A stretch of 64,000 nt of DNA from Candidatus Zixiibacteriota bacterium (GTDB lineage Bacteria; Zixibacteria; MSB-5A5; GN15; FEB-12), in contig JACZXB010000005.1 in the NCBI GenBank assembly GCA_022571845.1, positions 1 to 64,000 on the forward strand. Direction: 5' to 3'. A model generated the notes under the pieces. The model searched no databases. It was not told the DNA's origin and saw only the letters and a program-made list of their open reading frames with translations. The position numbers and the translations under genes were made by a program. Positions 39,449 to 51,009 of this stretch are shown here, piece after piece. The number at the start of each line of letters is the position of its first letter. Position 1 is the first letter of the stretch.

Positions 39449-40054
39449 TTATTCCTCTACTTTCAAATGAACAGTACGTTCGAAGTAGTTTCCGACCATG
39501 CCCTCACTTGCTTTTCCCTTTACAGTTTTCCCGCTGGTTAACATTACCTGCAGTGTAACTGTTGCATCTCCGGCCGCATCTGTCGGTCGAACAGTCATTG
39601 GCAGCAGGGTCCCTTTGGTACCCGGGTATGAATCGAGATTATCCCCTACCAGGCGGCAGGCCATCGGCAGGTTAATTTCCCAACCCGGTGCGAACTTGGA
39701 TAATGAGGAAGTTTTTATTCTATCGGGCGCAACATAGAGCCAGCCGTTGCGGTAGGGAATCAGTTGCTCATCATCCGTTTTGTATCCGATAACAGTCAAC
39801 AGGGTGGCGCTTTGGCCGCGCTTGACTGAGAGCAGAAAGCTGCCGTCAGATTGTCTGAGCGATAATCCTGATTCTTTTTCGACGATGTCAATTACGAGGT
39901 CAGGCCCGTCATGCCAATCGCCGTTGTCAACATGGCAGCTAAGGCAGTTCTCCGACTTTCCCAAAATTCCGACGGCGGGGGGATAAGCCAGTGAGTTTGC
40001 GACTACCACAGCCGCGACTGTGACACTTGCGAGAAAAATTCTCTTTGATTTCAT
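39449..40054 (-). CDS. Exported monoheme c-type cytochrome-like protein
   Basis: A 201-residue protein with a signal peptide (cleavage near NSLA-Y, residue 23). A single heme-attachment motif CLSCH lies near residue 37, preceded by PPAVGILGKSE. The remaining 160 residues are beta-rich with no second heme and resemble an Ig-like domain (SATLLTVIGYKTDD, ATVTLQVMLTSGKTVKG). A role as a small electron-carrier or heme sensor is inferred. Upstream, TGGGATACATATA is shared with the YceI promoter region. Confidence 0.7.
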   Translation of the reverse strand: MKSKRIFLASVTVAAVVVANSLAYPPAVGILGKSENCLSCHVDNGDWHDGPDLVIDIVEKESGLSLRQSDGSFLLSVKRGQSATLLTVIGYKTDDEQLIPYRNGWLYVAPDRIKTSSLSKFAPGWEINLPMACRLVGDNLDSYPGTKGTLLPMTVRPTDAAGDATVTLQVMLTSGKTVKGKASEGMVGNYFERTVHLKVEE

Positions 40055-40182: not shown

Positions 40183-40734
40183 TTATTGCTGTTCCAATGC
40201 CTCAATATCGATTATGATAAATACTTCATTACCAACTACAATTCCACCTTTCTCTAAGTCGCCGTTCCAACTAACGCCGAATTCGTGGCGATTGATTCTC
40301 GTTATTCCATGAAAGCCGACTCTTGAAATAGGTCCTTTATCTACGCCGTCTTCCCAAAAGGGTGTGTTCCACTTGCCCACATATTTCATATCCAAGGCTA
40401 CTTGTTTTGTAACCCCCCGAATAGTCAGGTTACCGGTAACCTTACTTTCATGCTTGCTGACTACATCAATTTTTGTGTTCTTAAACGTTATCGTAGGATG
40501 GCTCTTTGCATCAAGGAAATCTTCACTGAGCAAATGATCATCTCGCATTTTATCACCGGACCAAAAATTCTTAACAGTTATAGTCATTTCAACTGAAGTC
40601 ATGCCTGGATTTTCCGGGTCGAACTCCAGAGAACCTTGGACGTTATTGAAAAAACCTCGCAGCCAAGTAACCATCATATGCTTGACGCAGAACTCCGCCG
40701 ACGAATGACCTGGTTCAAATGTCCACTTTGCCAT
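40183..40734 (-). CDS. YceI family lipid-binding protein
   Basis: A 183-residue member of the YceI family, which folds as an elongated lipocalin-like barrel that binds polyisoprenoid or amphiphilic ligands. MAKWTFEPGHSSAEFCVKHM, FNNVQGSLEFDPENPG, MRDDHLLSEDFLDAKSHPTI, VTGNLTIRGVTKQVALDM and GITRINRHEFGVSWNG are the family motifs. There is no signal peptide, so it is probably cytoplasmic. It lies upstream of the monoheme gene on the same strand and shares an upstream motif with it. Confidence 0.93.
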   Translation of the reverse strand: MAKWTFEPGHSSAEFCVKHMMVTWLRGFFNNVQGSLEFDPENPGMTSVEMTITVKNFWSGDKMRDDHLLSEDFLDAKSHPTITFKNTKIDVVSKHESKVTGNLTIRGVTKQVALDMKYVGKWNTPFWEDGVDKGPISRVGFHGITRINRHEFGVSWNGDLEKGGIVVGNEVFIIIDIEALEQQ

Positions 40735-42490: not shown

Positions 42491-42521
42491 AAAAAAAGGC
42501 GCCCTGCGTTAGGCGCCTTTT
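42491..42521 (-). terminator. Rho-independent terminator of the lipoprotein gene
   Basis: AAAAAAAGGCGCC and GGCGCCTTTT pair around CTGCGTTA; on the minus strand seven T residues follow. It is 26 bases after the stop codon of the lipoprotein gene. Confidence 0.88.
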
Positions 42522-42546
42522 ACAAAATATATCGAAAAATGCTAAT

Positions 42547-43479
42547 TTAGAACTCGCGGGTCCAGCTTGATGTACCACTAGCCTGTGTTCCACTATCACA
42601 AGGCTCGGTGATATTCCAAACCGTTGTACCGTCAGAGATAGTCAGTGCTACGCTGCCGTCGGAAGCATAGACGCCGGTAGCTGTCCAGACACCTGTTACT
42701 GAGATAGTATCAACTCCGGCACCAAGATCACCAATACAGGACATATCTATTGTCGCTGTTACGCTGACTGTTCCTGAAGTTGGGCAATCGATTGTTCCGC
42801 CTTCGGAAATCATTAAATTTGTTGCACTAAGCACGTTGCTAAACGAAAAATCACAAACGAGAGTAGAATCGCCATCAGAGCCGGTAGCAGTTTCTGTTGC
42901 CGTACCGTTGATTGTGACAGGGGTTACCATATCGATCGTAATGCCTGTGATTGTTAGCGCACCATCTGAATTGGCAGAAAATGATCCACCATTTTCACTA
43001 ATACTAAAGTGAGACCTGATTCTCAATTCATCCAAAGTTGAGTCTGGAACCTGCAGCGTTTGTCCGCCAGACAATGTTTGAAGAGAATCAATACCAGCGA
43101 TAGTTATAGTATCATTATAAATAGTGTCAATAACGAACCCGGAAAACGAGAACACATGCCAAACACTGTCGTAGGTGTAGCTTAGTGAATCAAAAACCAA
43201 AATTTCATCACCGCCACCCAAAGCCTGTCTTGACATTGCATTTTTCGGCGAGAAGGTAGCGCCTGGAATAGAATCGATAATAATAAATGACAAATCGAAA
43301 GAATTAGCAATTGCTTCAAATGCTTCAGCGCCAACGAGATTTTCAGCCAACTGAAAGTCGATTGAGTTAGTATCGCCCTGAATTAGATTTGTAACGGCGT
43401 CATCTGTGCTGCAGCCGGGCAGCATTGTTATGAACGCTCCTAGTGACAGCAGTGTGAATAAAAGAGTAAATCTTTTCAT
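42547..43479 (-). CDS. Lipoprotein of unknown function
   Basis: A 310-residue protein with a lipobox MLPGC at residues 19-23 (signal MKRFTLLFTLLSLGAFIT). The mature part is Ser/Thr/Gly/Asp-rich and beta-rich, with repeating strands (SYTYDSVWHVFSFSGFVID, GALTITGITIDMVTPVTING, GTVSVTATIDMSCIGDL). It is likely outer-membrane or surface attached. No conserved domain was recognised. It is preceded by an AT-rich promoter region with no clear motif and followed by a strong terminator. Confidence 0.6.
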   Translation of the reverse strand: MKRFTLLFTLLSLGAFITMLPGCSTDDAVTNLIQGDTNSIDFQLAENLVGAEAFEAIANSFDLSFIIIDSIPGATFSPKNAMSRQALGGGDEILVFDSLSYTYDSVWHVFSFSGFVIDTIYNDTITIAGIDSLQTLSGGQTLQVPDSTLDELRIRSHFSISENGGSFSANSDGALTITGITIDMVTPVTINGTATETATGSDGDSTLVCDFSFSNVLSATNLMISEGGTIDCPTSGTVSVTATIDMSCIGDLGAGVDTISVTGVWTATGVYASDGSVALTISDGTTVWNITEPCDSGTQASGTSSWTREF

Positions 43480-43616
43480 TTGAAATCCTCCAATTGTTTA
43501 ATAAAGATAATCTCTTTTAATAATCGGAAGACTTAGCTCTTTATTGAGTGATATTGTTCACTTTTTTATCAATTATAAATGATCAATAACAAATTTTAAT
43601 GTTTTGAGAAAAACGA

Positions 43617-44837
43617 TTATTGGGGCTGTTTGGCAGCTTGAGGCCCGCCGTAAATGCCTATATGCGAATGAGTTCCATCTGGGTTGTAGATAGCAGTATC
43701 GCCTGAATTCCAGAGCGGAGAATCGGGCAGATATTTGAAATTGCTTTCCGGGAGAAACTTGGGGTCCGTATTCAGATTGCCGTTTAAGTCGGCCTGGTCA
43801 AAGATATTTTCGTATTCGCCCTCTTTATTATTCCAGACAAGATTATTAGCAAACTGCCATTTGGCCCAGTCGCCGTTGTTCCAGACTCCCACGCAAGGGC
43901 AGACCCACTCTTTGCGCCAGCCGTTTTCGGTGATGACGTTGTTGACTATGCGTCCGCGGCTTTCGTTAGACCAGGGCGCCACCCCGCAGTTACCATTGTG
44001 ATGGACTATATTATTGGCAATATCCATATACGATTGACCGGTAGCAATAATTCCCCAGCCAAGATTATCATGCACGCTGTTATTTCGGGCGACCACCCAT
44101 GAAGTTCCGAAGGCTCCTATCCCTTTCCAGAAACCGCTGATGTCGTTTCGAAAGGCGCTGCAGGAAGCATCCCAGGTGACACCGATACCGGCGCCGCGTC
44201 CATCTTTGATAACACAGTCGGTTACCAGTGCAGTAGCGCCGCGATAAAGAGCCACACCATCCCAGCCGTTGTTGGTAATATTGCAGTTTCTAATGGTAAT
44301 ATCGGCGCCTTCGCGTCCAAAAACTCCACCAATACCTACGACAACTGTGGAATCGGCGTGTCTGTTATCGTTGTCGCGAATGTCAACTTCTTCAATTAAA
44401 ACGCGCGAGTTGCGAACGACTATGGCAGCATCGGTGGCGTTGCCGTCAGCATCGCGCCTGCCGCCGGTAATGGTCAGATTTCTGATAATGGAATTGGAAG
44501 AATTTACGAAATAAACTCCATAGCCACCCTTGGTGAGAAGAATAGTTTTTTGTCTATCGGTGCCAATAATAACCAGCGACTTATTCTTGATAATAAAACC
44601 GTAGCTGGCAGCTACTTCAGTCCTGGGGTCAAGACAGTTGCCGCACAGTGAATCTGTAAAAGCAATTGGAGCGGCGTCATAAACTTTAGCAGAAAGTAGT
44701 ATGGTATCACCGCTTGACGCGAAATTAATTACAGCTTGAAAGTCGCTGCCGCGCTCAACCGTAAGAGTTGCGCTATTGGTCAAAGCAGCGAATAAGAACA
44801 GAAATACTAAGCTGCCACAAATTCGTAAAGTCTTCAT
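43617..44837 (-). CDS. Secreted right-handed parallel beta-helix protein
   Basis: A 406-residue protein with a signal peptide (cleavage near NSA, residue 22). From about residue 30 to 370 it shows short beta-helix coils with Asn ladders: IIRNLTITGGRRD, ITIRNCNITNNGWDGVALYR, NSVHDNLGWGIIATGQSYMD, IVHHNGNCGVAPWS and IVNNVITENGWR. This is the pectate-lyase-like / DUF1565 or NosD-like fold. The N-terminal AVINFASSGDTILLSAKVYD is typical of such proteins. The substrate is unknown; a polysaccharide-related role is a guess. It has no dockerin tail. Confidence 0.75.
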   Translation of the reverse strand: MKTLRICGSLVFLFLFAALTNSATLTVERGSDFQAVINFASSGDTILLSAKVYDAAPIAFTDSLCGNCLDPRTEVAASYGFIIKNKSLVIIGTDRQKTILLTKGGYGVYFVNSSNSIIRNLTITGGRRDADGNATDAAIVVRNSRVLIEEVDIRDNDNRHADSTVVVGIGGVFGREGADITIRNCNITNNGWDGVALYRGATALVTDCVIKDGRGAGIGVTWDASCSAFRNDISGFWKGIGAFGTSWVVARNNSVHDNLGWGIIATGQSYMDIANNIVHHNGNCGVAPWSNESRGRIVNNVITENGWRKEWVCPCVGVWNNGDWAKWQFANNLVWNNKEGEYENIFDQADLNGNLNTDPKFLPESNFKYLPDSPLWNSGDTAIYNPDGTHSHIGIYGGPQAAKQPQ

Positions 44838-44892
44838 TTCATCAGCTAATTTAACAGGCGAAAAGCCTCATAACAAGCGGCCAAAATTTGTC

Positions 44893-44920
44893 TTGACAAA
44901 TTTGAGAGAACTCATATATT
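44893..44920 (+). promoter_or_regulatory. Sigma70-type promoter of the metal-uptake operon
   Basis: TTGACA (44893-44898), a 16-base spacer and TATATT (44915-44920). The expected start site, near 44927, falls on the first bases of the palindrome at 44926-44953, so a repressor bound there would block initiation or escape. Confidence 0.75.
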
Positions 44921-44925
44921 TACCG

Positions 44926-44953
44926 ATATTATTTAGGTAAACCTAAATAATAT
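44926..44953. promoter_or_regulatory. 28-base perfect palindrome, likely DtxR/MntR-type operator
   Basis: ATATTATTTAGGT, two A residues, then ACCTAAATAATAT: both 13-base arms match perfectly. The TTAGGT/ACCTAA cores are of the DtxR/IdeR/MntR operator type. It lies directly downstream of the -10 box and ends just before the regulator gene, which suggests autoregulation by the metal-bound regulator. Confidence 0.75.
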
Positions 44954-44969
44954 GTTAGGTTTAATTAAC

Positions 44970-45638
44970 ATGATATTAAGCGAGTCAATAGAAGATTATC
45001 TGAAAGCAATTTACGCTCTCAAGAAAGAGGTCGGCAAGGTTGTGACCACACAACTCGCTGAACGTCTTGAGGTTAAGCCGGCATCGGTGACCGGCATGGT
45101 TCGCAAACTGGCTGATATGAAACTGGTTACTTACAAGCCCTATCAGGGAGTGGCTTTGACTAAAGCGGGTCAAAAGGTAGCTCTGGAAGTAATCAGGCAT
45201 CATCGGCTTCTGGAATTATATCTCAATGAAATAATGGGGCTACCCTGGGATAAGGTTCATCAGGAGGCTGAAAAGTTGGAACACGCTATCTCTGAAGAAT
45301 TGGAAGACCGAATAGACCAGTTACTTGGTCATCCGACTACTGATCCGCACGGCTCTCCGATTCCTTCAAAGGCCGGAAAAGTTAATAACTCTTCATCGAA
45401 AAAACTATCGGAAATGAAAAGAGGGGAGAAAGCAAAGATTGCGGAGGTAAGAGATGAAGATTCGGAGCTACTTAGATATGTCGGGGAGCTTGGGTTATTT
45501 CCGGGAAAATCATTTGAAGTTGTTAATGTGGCACCTTACAAAGGTCCCATGACTTTGAAAATTAAGAGCAAAAAAATTATAGTCGGCCGCGAAGCCGCTA
45601 AGCAGATACTGGTCAATAAGATCAGTGCTTGGAACTAA
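44970..45638 (+). CDS. DtxR/MntR family metal-dependent transcriptional regulator
   Basis: A regulator of 222 residues from the ATG at 44970; an in-frame ATG at 44952 overlaps the operator and is less likely. The winged helix (IEDYLKAIYALKKEVGKVVT, VKPASVTGMVRKLADM) is followed by the dimerisation and metal domain: HHRLLELYL and VHQEAEKLEH. Glu replaces the DtxR Cys102, as in MntR, so manganese or iron is likely. The last 70 residues form an SH3/FeoA-like domain. It heads the operon with heme-porin and TroABCD-type genes, and the next gene begins within 60 bases. Confidence 0.9.
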   Translation: MILSESIEDYLKAIYALKKEVGKVVTTQLAERLEVKPASVTGMVRKLADMKLVTYKPYQGVALTKAGQKVALEVIRHHRLLELYLNEIMGLPWDKVHQEAEKLEHAISEELEDRIDQLLGHPTTDPHGSPIPSKAGKVNNSSSKKLSEMKRGEKAKIAEVRDEDSELLRYVGELGLFPGKSFEVVNVAPYKGPMTLKIKSKKIIVGREAAKQILVNKISAWN

Positions 45639-45692
45639 AAGGAATTGTCCGCGGAAAACAGGACTGATGTTTTTACAGATGAGAGCGAGAAA

Positions 45693-46862
45693 ATGAACGG
45701 AAGAAGAGTCTTTGTTGACAGAATCTTTATTGTAACTCCTTTAGTTATTTTGGTGGCCATGATGTTGTCTTTCCAATTACAGGAGGCGCACGGAGTGCCA
45801 TATTTTGCGCGCAAGTATGACCTAAACTGTAACAGTTGCCACATCATGCCTCCGGCGCTGAACCAGCAGGGTGAAAATTTTGTAGCCAACGGTTACAAGC
45901 CCGTCGGGCCTACAGAGGCGAAAGCGACGTGGCCTTTCGCTTTGTGGTTGACGCAGCGCGGTGAGGTACAGCATTCGAATGATCTGGATAAGGCGTTTCC
46001 GAATAAGGTGGAGTTGATATCCGGAGGGCCGCTCGGCGATTCGCGGGCGAGTTATTTTCTGGAGTGGCGGATTCTCAGTCTGCAAGTGAGTTCTGACGGC
46101 AGTTTGAAGGACCGAAGCGGCAGGTTTGAGGATTTGTTTATTACATATGATGTTTCGAATTCTGTAAACTTGAAGGCGGGTCAATTTCGGCTCTTGAATC
46201 AGATTGATGATTCCCGAAAACTGGGACTTTCGACTCCGCTGGTGATTGGTGCGAAGATTTCCGGCAGTGGCGCCGGCAGCGCCAGAGAACTATCACTCAG
46301 GGCGTTTGCGCCGAACGGTCGTTCTCCGTCTGTCAGTCTCCAGCATCGTTCACTGCCGGGGGCGCATGCGGCTAACGGGTGGTTTAATATTGTGAGTCTT
46401 GTTTTTCCCGGTGAATTCTCTATTCCGATTACGGATGAAGCGCGGGAAGAGGCCAGTTTTGAATTTGAATCAGATCCCAAAGGTGTGTTTTTGGAGTCGT
46501 TTTACAAGAGGGGTCTGAGTTCTGTAGGGGCGCACTTGTTTGTGGATGACGGCAGGAGTATGGGGAGTCTGATCGGCGTTTACAATCGGGGTCGCTGGTT
46601 TTCACGGCTGGGTTTGGGTTACGGGCGATTTGCCGGGGAAACTAATCTGAGAATCACACTCGAGAGCGAGTTTATACCGTATGATTTTCTCTCTGGTGGT
46701 GTTCGTCTGGATCATCAGACTGAAGTGGACAACGGCACATCGTTTGTGCCAAACGTGAATTTTCAATGGCCGCTTACCGTATGGACTTTGCGTCTGGTGG
46801 TGGAACACAGAGTGCGTTCTGACAATAATTTGACAGTGGGTGAATTGAGTCTGGTGTTTTGA
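45693..46862 (+). CDS. Monoheme outer-membrane porin, Cyc2-like architecture
   Basis: From the ATG at 45693 (389 residues) it has a signal peptide with hydrophobic TPLVILVAMML, then VPYFARKYDLNCNSCHIMPP and ALNQQGENFVANGY; CNSCH is a c-type heme site (residues 46-50). About 300 residues of amphipathic beta strands follow, ending in LSLVF with the C-terminal Phe of outer-membrane proteins. This fused heme-porin plan matches Cyc2-type proteins. A TTG at 45645 is a less likely start. It lies between the metal regulator and the importer, so a role in outer-membrane electron transfer or metal passage is plausible but unproven. Confidence 0.72.
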   Translation: MNGRRVFVDRIFIVTPLVILVAMMLSFQLQEAHGVPYFARKYDLNCNSCHIMPPALNQQGENFVANGYKPVGPTEAKATWPFALWLTQRGEVQHSNDLDKAFPNKVELISGGPLGDSRASYFLEWRILSLQVSSDGSLKDRSGRFEDLFITYDVSNSVNLKAGQFRLLNQIDDSRKLGLSTPLVIGAKISGSGAGSARELSLRAFAPNGRSPSVSLQHRSLPGAHAANGWFNIVSLVFPGEFSIPITDEAREEASFEFESDPKGVFLESFYKRGLSSVGAHLFVDDGRSMGSLIGVYNRGRWFSRLGLGYGRFAGETNLRITLESEFIPYDFLSGGVRLDHQTEVDNGTSFVPNVNFQWPLTVWTLRLVVEHRVRSDNNLTVGELSLVF

Positions 46863-47064
46863 TTCGTTACGTTTTGGTGGGACGACGCTCGGATCAGTCG
46901 TCGCCGGTTATCGGGCGCTCGGCGTTTTCGTGTCCAAAAGACCCAGGCCCTTTGTGTCATGACGCTTCCTGTGAATACTTCGGTGATGATTGCCAAATGC
47001 CTTTCGCTGGTGAATCGATTGATGTTGATGGGGTAGCTTTACTTTTTCAAGGGAGTTTTTAAAA

Positions 47065-48009
47065 ATGACTGACCGCTTCGATTTTTATTACAAAAGAATG
47101 ATTTGTCTGATTTTATTCACGCTTGCGTTTTTGGTTTTATCCTGCAGTCAAATTTCCCATAAGGAATCCGGTAAACTAAAGGTTGTCACCACCATCGGCA
47201 TGCTGGCCGATGCTGTTAAAGTAATAACTGCCGACTCAGTTGAAGTTACGGGACTAATGGGACCGGGAGTAGACCCTCATCTTTATAAAGCAACCAGCGG
47301 TGACGTAAGTCTGCTTGATAAAGCCGACCTGATTGTTTATAACGGACTTAATCTGGAAGCCAAGATGACAGTTATTTTCAAGAAAATGTCGGCTTCCAAA
47401 AGAACGTTGGCAGTAGCCGAACGAATTGACAGCTCACTACTGCGGTTTCCGGAATATTTTAAAGGGCATCCGGATCCGCATGTCTGGTTCGATGTTTCGA
47501 TGTGGAAAACCGTCGTGGCAGCAACAGGCGCTGTATTAATGGAAATGGACTCTGCCAACCAAAAGTTATATCAAGAAAATCTGTCGGGCTATCTTCATGT
47601 CCTTGATGAACTGCATAAGTGGGTAAAGGCACAGATGGCAACTATTCCCGAAGAAAAACGGATTTTGGTAACAGCACACGATGCCTTCGGGTATTTGGGG
47701 CGGGCCTATGATATTGAAGTACGAGGACTACAGGGAATTTCTACTGTAACCGAAGCCGGCTTGTACGATCTGACTCACATGATCGATATGCTGGTCGAAA
47801 GAAAAATCAAGGCGGTTTTCGTAGAATCGTCAGTGCCGCGAAAAGCGATTGAGGCGGTAGTAGAAGGCTGCCGGCAGCGGGGGCTTGATATAGAAATTGG
47901 CGGCGAACTATTTTCCGATGCTATGGGTGAAGGGGGTACACCGGAGGGAACCTATATCGGGATGGTCCGTCACAACGTTAATACTATCGTAAAAGCATTG
48001 AGTAAATAA
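47065..48009 (+). CDS. Metal ABC transporter substrate-binding lipoprotein, TroA/YtgA type
   Basis: A 314-residue periplasmic binding lipoprotein with lipobox VLSC (Cys27). The metal ligands typical of TroA are His72 (DPHLY), His139 (DPHVWFD), His205 (TAHDAFGY) and Asp285 (GGELFSDAMG). The stretch AHDAFGYLGRAYDIEVRGLQ followed by GISTVTEA closely follows TroA. His rather than Glu at the third site favours the TroA/ZnuA subtype over PsaA. It is followed by the ATPase after 5 bases. Metal choice (Zn, Mn or Fe) cannot be settled from sequence. Confidence 0.92.
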   Translation: MTDRFDFYYKRMICLILFTLAFLVLSCSQISHKESGKLKVVTTIGMLADAVKVITADSVEVTGLMGPGVDPHLYKATSGDVSLLDKADLIVYNGLNLEAKMTVIFKKMSASKRTLAVAERIDSSLLRFPEYFKGHPDPHVWFDVSMWKTVVAATGAVLMEMDSANQKLYQENLSGYLHVLDELHKWVKAQMATIPEEKRILVTAHDAFGYLGRAYDIEVRGLQGISTVTEAGLYDLTHMIDMLVERKIKAVFVESSVPRKAIEAVVEGCRQRGLDIEIGGELFSDAMGEGGTPEGTYIGMVRHNVNTIVKALSK

Positions 48010-48014
48010 TAAAT

Positions 48015-48788
48015 ATGACAGACAATAGAAACAACGCTGCTCCCATTGAAGTTCATGATTTAACCGTGGCCTATCGCAAAAAGCCGGTGCTCTGGGACAT
48101 CGATTTTAGTCTGCCCGAAGGTCAGCTGATTGGCATGGTTGGTCCCAACGGCGCCGGTAAATCGACACTTATTAAAGCAATTATGGGGTTGCTGCCGCTA
48201 TCCTCAGGTTTTATCAAAATATACGGCAAGCCGCTTGAGATTCAGCGCGAATTGGTCGGCTATGTGCCGCAGCGTGAGTCGGTCGATTGGGATTTTCCGA
48301 CTGACGCTCTTGACGTTGTAACAATGGGACGCTATGGCAAGCTGAGCCTTTTTGGACGTCCGTCGAAAGAAGACAAAGAAATTGCCATGGACGCTCTTGA
48401 AAAAGTAGGCCTGGCAGATTTCGCCAAACGGCAGATAAGTCAATTGTCGGGTGGGCAGCAGCAACGTGTTTTTCTGGCGCGGGCGCTGGCTCAGGATGCT
48501 GTAATATATCTGATGGATGAACCATTTGCCGGTGTTGATGCGGCTACCGAAAAAGCCATCATAGAACTGCTGGGAGAACTCAAAAATAAAGGCAAGACTC
48601 TGCTGGTAGTGCATCATGACTTAAATACCGTAGCCGAATATTTTGACTGGGTTATGCTGTTAAATCTGAGGCTGATAAAACTTGGTCCTGTTCAGGAAAT
48701 TTTTAATAACGAAAATCTGAGAACTACTTATGGCGGCAAGTTAAATCTGCTTTCGGAGATGGCAGAAAAGATCGGCAAAATGCCTTAA
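48015..48788 (+). CDS. Metal ABC transporter ATP-binding protein, TroB/YtgB type
   Basis: A 257-residue ATPase. Walker A is GPNGAGKSTL, the Q-loop region GYVPQRESVDWDFPTDALDV is distinctive for metal (manganese/zinc/iron) importers, the signature is LSGGQQQRVFLARAL, Walker B is IYLMDEPFAGVD, and the H-loop is VVHHDL. It starts 5 bases after the binding-protein gene and ends 11 bases before the permease gene, consistent with an operon. Confidence 0.95.
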   Translation: MTDNRNNAAPIEVHDLTVAYRKKPVLWDIDFSLPEGQLIGMVGPNGAGKSTLIKAIMGLLPLSSGFIKIYGKPLEIQRELVGYVPQRESVDWDFPTDALDVVTMGRYGKLSLFGRPSKEDKEIAMDALEKVGLADFAKRQISQLSGGQQQRVFLARALAQDAVIYLMDEPFAGVDAATEKAIIELLGELKNKGKTLLVVHHDLNTVAEYFDWVMLLNLRLIKLGPVQEIFNNENLRTTYGGKLNLLSEMAEKIGKMP

Positions 48789-48799
48789 GGTTTTCTTAT

Positions 48800-50113
48800 A
48801 TGGATATCTGGGATCTGACAGTCAGGTTTTTCTCAATGACCGATGCCAACGTACGCTATGTGGTGGCAGGATCGGTCCTTTTGGGCGGCATCGCAGGAGC
48901 TTTCGGCACCTTTGCTTTTTTGCAAAGACGCTCATTAATTGGTGATGCTATCGCACATGCCACTCTGCCCGGAGTGGGCTTTGCCTTTCTGATATTGGGG
49001 CGCAAAGAGCTGCACTGGCTGCTTTTGGGTGCGGCCATATCAGGCTGGGCAGGCGCTCTGGCTATTGATGCTATCACTCGCCATTCTCGCCTGAAACTCG
49101 ACGCCGCTTTAGGAATTGTGCTCTCAGCATTTTTCGGACTGGGCATTGTCATTCTGACATATATCCAGAAAACCGGGGCCGGGGCCCAGTCGGGACTTGA
49201 CAAGTTTTTGTTCGGACAGGCGGCTGCTATCGGCCGACAGGACGTTATAGTCCTGGCCGTCATCGGAGCTATTATGGTGACGGTGCTGCTGTCCTTATTT
49301 GCAAAACTCAAAATCATGACCTTTGATGCCGGTTTTGCGGCATCAGCCGGGTTAAACACAGGTCTTTTGCAGTTTGTGCTGACGACCATGCTGGTGGTCA
49401 CGGTAACAGTCGGCTTGCAGGCGGTAGGGGTAGTGCTGATGGCGGCAATTCTTATTATTCCGGCTGCCGCGGCCAGACAATGGACCGATAATCTTAAAAT
49501 AATGTTGGTGCTGTCGGCCTTATTCGGGATGATTTCAGGTGTTACTGGTGCTTACATTTCGTTTTTAAAGCCTCACTTTCCAACCGGACCGTGGATAGTC
49601 GTCTCAGCCTCTCTTATTTTTATTTTTTCGATCATGTTTGCAACCAAACGAGGTATAGTCGTCCGCCTGGTAAGACAGCTTAAAAACCGCAGAAAGATGA
49701 CTGAAGACCACGTACTGAAAGTTTTATTCAAAGCCGGCATGGACAGTCGCAACTGGAGAGCCTTATACCCGCCGCTGCATATTTCTCAGCTATGGTCGTT
49801 TGGAGCGGCAGAACTAAAAAGGGGACTAAAAAGACTGGTGAGCAGAGGCGAACTGGAAAAAGAGGGAGGCATGTACCGTCTGACAGAGAACGGTGTCAGC
49901 TCCGGCGCTCGGGTAACGCGACTTCACAGATTATGGGAGGTTTATCTGGAGCGCCATCTGGAACTGCCCCCGGATCACCTGCACCGCGATGCCGAAGAGA
50001 TGGAGCATATTATTACGCCCGAAGTAGAGAAGAGGCTCGAAGAAATGCTGGGGCATCCTGTATTGGATCCGCACCACCAGGAAATTCCTTATTTTGATAA
50101 GGCAAAGAGCTGA
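48800..50113 (+). CDS. Metal ABC permease fused to a DtxR-like regulator domain, YtgCR type
   Basis: A 437-residue fusion. Residues 1-285 form an ABC-3 family permease with about eight helices (RRSLIGDAIAHATLPGVGFA is the family motif). Residues about 297-437 are a DtxR-like module: a winged helix (EDHVLKVLFKAG, AAELKRGLKRLVSRGELEKE), then HRLWEVYLERHLELP and HLHRDAEEMEH, retaining His376, Glu380, His395, Glu399, Glu402 and His403 as probable metal ligands. This is the layout of chlamydial YtgCR, in which cleavage releases a repressor. Cleavage here is not known. Confidence 0.9.
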   Translation: MDIWDLTVRFFSMTDANVRYVVAGSVLLGGIAGAFGTFAFLQRRSLIGDAIAHATLPGVGFAFLILGRKELHWLLLGAAISGWAGALAIDAITRHSRLKLDAALGIVLSAFFGLGIVILTYIQKTGAGAQSGLDKFLFGQAAAIGRQDVIVLAVIGAIMVTVLLSLFAKLKIMTFDAGFAASAGLNTGLLQFVLTTMLVVTVTVGLQAVGVVLMAAILIIPAAAARQWTDNLKIMLVLSALFGMISGVTGAYISFLKPHFPTGPWIVVSASLIFIFSIMFATKRGIVVRLVRQLKNRRKMTEDHVLKVLFKAGMDSRNWRALYPPLHISQLWSFGAAELKRGLKRLVSRGELEKEGGMYRLTENGVSSGARVTRLHRLWEVYLERHLELPPDHLHRDAEEMEHIITPEVEKRLEEMLGHPVLDPHHQEIPYFDKAKS

Positions 50114-51009
50114 TGTCGCCGGAACTCTGGGTCATTTTTACTGCTATTTTGGCCGCCTCGGCCTGTGCACTAATTGGTGCCTTTTTGGTCTTAAGGCAGG
50201 GCGCCATGCTGGGCGACGGCATTTCGCATGCTGTTTTACCCGGCTTAGCTCTGGCCTTTATTATTACCTCAAGCCGCGACGTTTTGCCAATGCTTATCGG
50301 AGCAGGAGCGATGGGACTTTTAACAGCTTTTCTAACAGAGTTTTTATCCCGCACTGGCAGGTTGTATCGCGACGCTTCATTGGGGATCGTCTTTACAGTT
50401 TTGTTCAGCATTGGAGTTATTTTGATAGCCGGTTTTGCCGGACAGATTGATCTGGACCAGGAGTGCGTACTCTATGGCGAAATTGCCTACACTCCCTGGG
50501 ACACATTTGTAGTAGGCAACACAAATCTGGGACCAAGAGCGTTCTGGGTTCTCGGAGTGGTTTTCATTTTCAATATAATTTTTATATCTCTATTTTTCAA
50601 ACAGCTAAAGATTACATCTTTTGATCCGGCACTGGCTAGGACAGTCGGCATATCTGACAGGCTATGGCACTACTTGCTGACTTCGGTAGTGGCGCTGACA
50701 GTGGTAGCCGCCTTTGAATCGGTTGGTGCAATTTTAGTAGTGGCCATGCTTACAATTCCGGGCGCCACAGCCTTTCTAATTACCAGAAATTTACAGCTAA
50801 TGCTGATTTTATCAGTCTTAGTTGGGGTGGCCTCGGCTCTTGGCGGATATTATGGGGCGACGCTTACAAATACATCTATTGCCGGGTTTATGGCTGTGGC
50901 CGGAGGGGTTATTTTCGCTCTAACCCTGATTATTAGAAATGTGATTGACAAAACTCAGGCTTTAAGCACAGTTTCACTTCAGAAGCAGGCGATTACGCCT
51001 ATTAACTGA
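50113..51009 (+). CDS. Metal ABC transporter permease, TroD/YtgD type
   Basis: A 298-residue ABC-3 family permease with about nine hydrophobic segments. SACALIGAFLVLRQGAMLGD with ISHAVLPGLALAF, and GRLYRDASLGIVFTVLFSIG, are the family signatures. Its ATG overlaps the stop of the fused permease (TGATG), so the two are translationally coupled. It pairs with the permease half of that fusion to form the transmembrane dimer of the importer. It has no regulator domain. Confidence 0.94.
   Translation: MSPELWVIFTAILAASACALIGAFLVLRQGAMLGDGISHAVLPGLALAFIITSSRDVLPMLIGAGAMGLLTAFLTEFLSRTGRLYRDASLGIVFTVLFSIGVILIAGFAGQIDLDQECVLYGEIAYTPWDTFVVGNTNLGPRAFWVLGVVFIFNIIFISLFFKQLKITSFDPALARTVGISDRLWHYLLTSVVALTVVAAFESVGAILVVAMLTIPGATAFLITRNLQLMLILSVLVGVASALGGYYGATLTNTSIAGFMAVAGGVIFALTLIIRNVIDKTQALSTVSLQKQAITPIN

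Follow-up and report, generated by a model that had tools for sequence, protein, structure and literature searches.

Why would a gene for a protein built like the outer-membrane cytochrome Cyc2 lie inside an operon for metal uptake? The question is raised by a 64,000-nucleotide stretch of DNA (the window), part of contig C4 of the Zixibacteria genome G000, whose relatives are named Candidatus Zixiibacteriota. According to Keffer et al. 2021, a Cyc2 has at least 365 residues, a CXXCH motif with PXFAR[QK][TY] shortly upstream and PXL four residues downstream, and a porin barrel; its heme plug is thought to lie where the pore opens into the periplasm, accepting electrons from dissolved Fe2+ (PMC8406198).

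The original prediction described a signal-like leader, one CNSCH motif, a barrel-like tail and a terminal Phe, and all of these are confirmed in an open reading frame that is real and intact (Table 1). The leader, MNGRRVFVDRIFIVTPLVILVAMMLSFQLQEAHG, contains RR and, by eye, a hydrophobic stretch. The single CXXCH is CNSCH at residues 46-50, within PYFARKYDLNCNSCH, and the chain ends in GELSLVF. Upstream of the heme site stands PYFARKY, which fits PXFAR[QK][TY], and the leading A of AXPXFAR found in Cyc2 is G here. In the six-frame translation of the window, the combination of PXFAR[QK][TY] with a CXXCH close behind it appears a single time, and it appears in none of 100 shuffles. The order CNSCH-IMP-PAL places PXL about four residues past the CXXCH, and the length of 389 residues exceeds the Cyc2 minimum of 365. 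The same single CXXCH, flanking motifs, length above 365 residues and barrel-like remainder characterize Cyc2 of Acidithiobacillus and Mariprofundus and Cyt572 of Leptospirillum, so that the published sequence criteria, together with the tail, support the proposal of a Cyc2-like fused cytochrome-porin. The putative barrel is supported by two properties of residues 71-389: this 319-residue tail has no cysteines, and its beta-type amphipathic periodicity (z=4.1, with 17 candidate strands) was the strongest among all proteins tested, compared with z<0.2 in all nine soluble or inner-membrane controls. An AlphaFold model, computed from an alignment of only six near-identical rows, had a pLDDT of 28.7. 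No Pfam or NCBIfam model matched the protein, and neither it nor a 34-member profile matched a solved structure in sequence searches of the PDB. In the plug domain, R40, C46, C49, H50, G60 and G67 are invariant among 34 aligned relatives, and the alignment did not reveal a conserved second ligand for the heme. Every copy that covers this region keeps the CXXCH and its flanking motif, those of Ignavibacteria among them. Purifying selection (dN/dS 0.13-0.22 in pairs from four genomes) shows that the protein is constrained. The MtrCAB, MtoAB and PCC complexes likewise combine heme electron transfer with an outer-membrane barrel, but they do so with separate multiheme cytochromes, whereas here there is one heme in one chain. 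A multiheme porin-cytochrome complex of the MtrAB/PCC type was ruled out, as the protein has one heme motif and the window has no multiheme gene.

Table 1. Features of the operon and of the cytochrome-porin gene, in window coordinates.
Feature	Position	Strand	Basis or remark
Sigma-70-like promoter TTGACA-16-TATATT, predicted	44893..44920	+	Best regional match, 11/12 consensus bases; consensus only, regional number of matches at shuffle level
DtxR/MntR-type operator, predicted	44928..44951		Perfect 11-bp inverted repeat ATTATTTAGGT-AA-ACCTAAATAAT
DtxR/MntR-family regulator (dtxR) with C-terminal FeoA domain	44952..45638 (start may be 44970)	+	Pfam PF01325, PF02742, PF04023
Monoheme cytochrome-porin (Cyc2-like)	45693..46862	+	389 aa, intact ORF
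Signal-peptide-like leader, predicted	45693..45794	+	By eye, about 34 residues; family alignment
Cytochrome plug domain	45795..45902	+	CNSCH at 45828-45842, PXFARKY before, PAL after
Putative beta-barrel, residues 71-389	45903..46859	+	Beta periodicity
Fossil 3' end of replaced heme-less porin	46973..47062	+	29 codons and stop, between cytochrome-porin and znuA
ZnuA/MntA-type metal-binding lipoprotein	47065..48009	+	Pfam PF01297, 1.6e-74
ABC ATPase, Mn/Fe type	48015..48788	+	Pfam/NCBIfam
ABC-3 permease fused to DtxR metal-binding/dimerisation domain	48800..50113	+	PF00950, PF02742
Second ABC-3 permease	50113..51009	+	Pfam; last 71 bp kept in L005 as a stub

Does the gene belong to the operon that surrounds it? 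The neighbours are those described earlier, a DtxR/MntR-FeoA regulator upstream and a ZnuA-type protein, an ABC ATPase and two ABC-3 permeases downstream; the best NCBIfam match of the regulator is of the MntR type, below cut-off. Immediately 5' of dtxR, downstream of the promoter match, is a perfect 24-bp palindrome, ATTATTTAGGTAAACCTAAATAAT. The exact sequence TTAGGTNNACCTAA has its sole copy in the window in this predicted operator, which is identical in the related locus L005 and partly conserved in L004, and a box of the same type precedes dtxR in L112, an operon with a heme-less porin. The cytochrome-porin gene is co-directional with dtxR and starts 54 bp past it. Co-transcription of dtxR, the cytochrome-porin gene and znuA is likely, if unproven, because the operator lies solely before dtxR and no terminator was called in either of the two gaps. 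With its co-directional orientation, the lack of an internal operator and its place in the slot that a porin otherwise fills, the gene appears to be a member of a DtxR/MntR-controlled metal-uptake operon. We found no report of a cytochrome-porin inside an uptake operon in the open-access literature, and no redox partner gene adjoins it in the operon of the window. The fused DtxR domain of the permease at 48800-50113 makes metal sensing by the permease itself possible. Upstream, on the minus strand, lies a gene for a right-handed beta-helix, NosD-like exported protein (43617-44837); this kind of protein also accompanies dtxR-znuA operons of other genera (L090, L091) and adjoins a ZnuA gene in L094. 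Further upstream, a small exported monoheme protein and a gene that is YceI-like by eye adjoin each other (39449-40054 and 40183-40734, both minus strand).

Cyc2-like cytochrome-porins are common in Zixibacteria and Ignavibacteria. With the window protein as query (E<=1e-6), 36 of the 132 Zixibacteria genomes and 135 of the 391 from the Ignavibacteria-side class yielded cytochrome-porins that share its N-terminal domain. These proteins share the IPXFARKY-CXXCH domain and the barrel plan of about 400 residues, but their overall identity to the window protein is about 15-25%, and they are partnered with multiheme, diheme or oxidase-linked cytochromes. One group, with CTTCH, adjoins a tetraheme cytochrome, another, with CNMCH, a diheme peroxidase, and wherever we read the neighbourhoods of other subfamilies, electron-carrier genes adjoined them. 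The operon of the window differs from these, and from the setting of the Cyc2 and Cyt572 proteins named above, in having a metal importer and not electron carriers. The placement in a metal-uptake operon had been called unusual, and this comparison agrees, the more so as a heme-less porin otherwise fills the slot. In a tree without bona fide Cyc2, the window protein falls into a separate, well-supported clade with the copies of G002, L005, the Ignavibacteria locus L006 and G169 (39% identity), and this clade stands on a long branch relative to the other cytochrome-porins in the tree. G043 has a C-terminal fragment with 90% identity and, about 5 kb further downstream, a gene that looks ferritin-like by eye (L104:3772-4272, minus strand). 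No relatives were found by tblastn against plasmids or in a scan of viral contigs. The orthologue of L006 (L006:308-1507) has one in-frame TAA and is followed by genes for a DHOR diheme protein, a Rieske protein and a porin-like protein. G000 itself has a paralogue on contig C6 (G000:C6:148463 region, L046:6682-12834), which follows a COX4-cytochrome c fusion and is separated by two non-heme genes from a 6-heme protein encoded downstream. If this organism respires by iron oxidation of the Cyc2 type, the paralogue is the better candidate.

What occupied the slot before? In L111 and L112, from distant families of the phylum, the gene order is dtxR, heme-less porin, ZnuA, ABC and permease, and L113 preserves the C-terminus of the porin followed by ZnuA and the remainder of the operon. 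The slot porins of these three loci have no CXXCH, and one of them matches Porin_O_P weakly, short of the cut-off (E=0.002). In the sister species G001 we found neither the cytochrome-porin nor any ZnuA; at the corresponding place in its chromosome stand the first 63 codons of dtxR, with 84% identity, then a heme-less porin that is 40-43% identical to the slot porins just described, and 18 codons of the last permease. The window carries the end of such a porin as a fossil, EYFGDDCQMPFAGESIDVDGVALLFQGSF-stop, identical in 22 of 29 residues to the end of the G001 porin, EFFRDDYQMPFFGESIDVNGVVLFLQGSF-stop, and the fossil is present in L004 too. Because the heme-less porin occupies the slot in relatives, stands at the G001 site and persists as a fossil in the window, these comparisons show that the ancestral order was dtxR, heme-less porin, mntABC, and that the cytochrome-porin replaced the porin. 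The two share the slot, a similar length and a C-terminal Phe or Ile, whereas the CXXCH is absent from the heme-less porin (L111, L112, L113, L114). Did the old porin simply gain a heme domain? We rejected this, since profile comparison detected no homology between the barrels (hhalign probability 4.8% and 0.3%), which favours gene replacement.

The homology between L005 (JADFPZ010000044.1) and the window extends from window position 42491 to 46863, ending just beyond the stop codon of the cytochrome-porin, and picks up again at 50939, 71 bp short of where the last permease ends. Between the two blocks, where the window has mntABC, are genes for a DtxR-FeoA-FeoA protein and FeoB. At a later stage, then, MntABC gave way to FeoA/FeoB in this relative, and dtxR and the cytochrome-porin stayed. 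FeoB and the MntABC/ZnuABC families both carry reduced divalent metal.

The cytochrome-porin itself seems to be young at this site. Its dS is 0.14 to L005 and 0.28 to L004; within either genome pair, all the neighbours compared have higher values, 0.24-1.10. Its G+C content is 50% against 45.5% for the window, although the first permease is equally high, and in another family of the order the cytochrome-porin copy is 90% identical while ZnuA is 57% identical. Based on the low dS, the higher G+C and this disparity in identity, the gene probably arrived and spread recently and horizontally. The insertion site is unstable and has been repeatedly deleted or rebuilt. The assembly G002 contains two versions of the locus, L004 (G002:C8) with the operon and L115 (G002:C494) without it, probably as a strain mixture; in L115, codon 48 of dtxR is joined to codon 180 of the permease and all between is deleted.

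What could a heme-carrying porin do in this position? We lean towards the view that it is a Cyc2-like cytochrome-porin in the porin slot of a metal operon, serving as an outer-membrane channel for Fe(II)/Mn(II) with the heme as a redox-active plug. Fe(II) or Mn(II) would cross the outer membrane through the channel into the periplasm, where it would be taken up by the MntABC importer, or by FeoB in the relative L005, and the covalent heme would plug the periplasmic end of the pore. The sequence features, the place in the operon, the replacement of a heme-less porin and the later change of importer are shown; co-transcription, the barrel and the channel for metal are inferred from them, and the direction of electron flow and any reduction of metal by the heme are guesses. 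Because both types of importer carry reduced divalent ions, the useful direction would be outward, with Fe(III) or Mn(III/IV) reduced at or in the pore. Such reduction would, as a guess, explain why a cytochrome is there, and it would need a periplasmic electron donor, none of which is encoded nearby. Redox-dependent metal acquisition, which the original prediction had suggested, is a reasonable reading of the putative function, strengthened because the cytochrome-porin was kept through the exchange of Mnt for Feo. The complete version, a redox-gated importer whose heme plug reduces Fe(III) or Mn(III/IV) and passes M(II) to MntABC or FeoB, an iron-oxidase scaffold reversed for nutrition, is possible, and we put it forward only tentatively. 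MnoP and the OmpU-type porins have been proposed to provide an outer-membrane Mn(II) route that feeds a dedicated importer (PMC9334652), and the likeness is one of proposed role; those porins have no heme. Against uptake of metal speaks the fact that the association with a metal operon is known in one clade and probably goes back to one insertion. No metal operon was seen beside the L006 orthologue, which adjoins a diheme oxidoreductase and a Rieske gene, or on the short contigs of the G043 and G169 orthologues. The lack of an adjoining redox partner gene and the poor AlphaFold model of the barrel also count against it, and the low dS relative to the neighbours would be compatible with an arrival so young that the role may not be settled. 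Co-occurrence with ZnuA across the phylum gave no signal either way, ZnuA being common (92 of 132 genomes).

Could the protein instead be a conventional iron oxidase of the Cyc2 type, for respiration or detoxification, which hands electrons taken from Fe(II) outside the cell to carriers in the periplasm and simply landed downstream of dtxR, gaining metal-responsive expression? The members of the Cyc2 family tested so far do oxidise Fe(II) (PMC8406198). Cluster 3 Cyc2 genes dominate in communities in which Zixibacteria and Ignavibacteriales carry iron-oxidation genes (PMC8478452). The surroundings of the L006 orthologue would also suit such an enzyme. However, no electron-carrier gene stands next to the cytochrome-porin of the window, unlike in the other subfamilies, and Fe(III), the product of oxidation, would be useless to FeoB or MntABC. 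The protein took the place of a porin and persisted through the importer swap, and the genome has its better respiratory candidate in the C6 paralogue. We therefore regard an iron oxidase as rather unlikely here.

It may also be that the gene is a hitch-hiker, recently transferred into a recombination hot spot and functionally unconnected to the operon. The dS values, the disparity between the 90% and 57% identities and the history of deletion and rebuilding at the site all fit this. Against it, the gene replaces the porin exactly, in co-directional order 54 bp past dtxR, is under purifying selection and was retained in the L005 rearrangement, and we consider this explanation improbable. Least probable of all seems a metal-uptake porin in which the heme domain plugs the pore for structural or sensory purposes and does not conduct electrons. 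The heme-less porin in relatives suggests that heme is dispensable for the basic job, and the plug domain offered no conserved second ligand, but the CXXCH and the surrounding motif stand in every copy spanning that part, even in those of Ignavibacteria.

We conclude that the cytochrome-porin represents, as far as sequence and gene order can tell, a distinct clade of Cyc2-like cytochrome-porins in a metal-uptake operon. It may act as an electron-using outer-membrane metal gate, a possibility raised by its replacement of an ordinary porin in a clade of uncultured Zixibacteria and by its retention in L005, whose operon changed to an iron importer. The locus is a natural experiment: of the old porin one genome preserves a fossil and another the whole gene, and behind the same heme-porin Mnt and Feo importers have been exchanged; electron-assisted metal uptake is thereby made directly testable. 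Cyc2 genes serve to mark a metabolism that oxidises iron, and FeGenie lists cluster 3 under probable iron oxidation and possible reduction (PMC7005843). The replacement of a metal operon's porin by a Cyc2-like protein suggests that some homologues have a role in metal nutrition, and that the Cyc2 marker can mislead.
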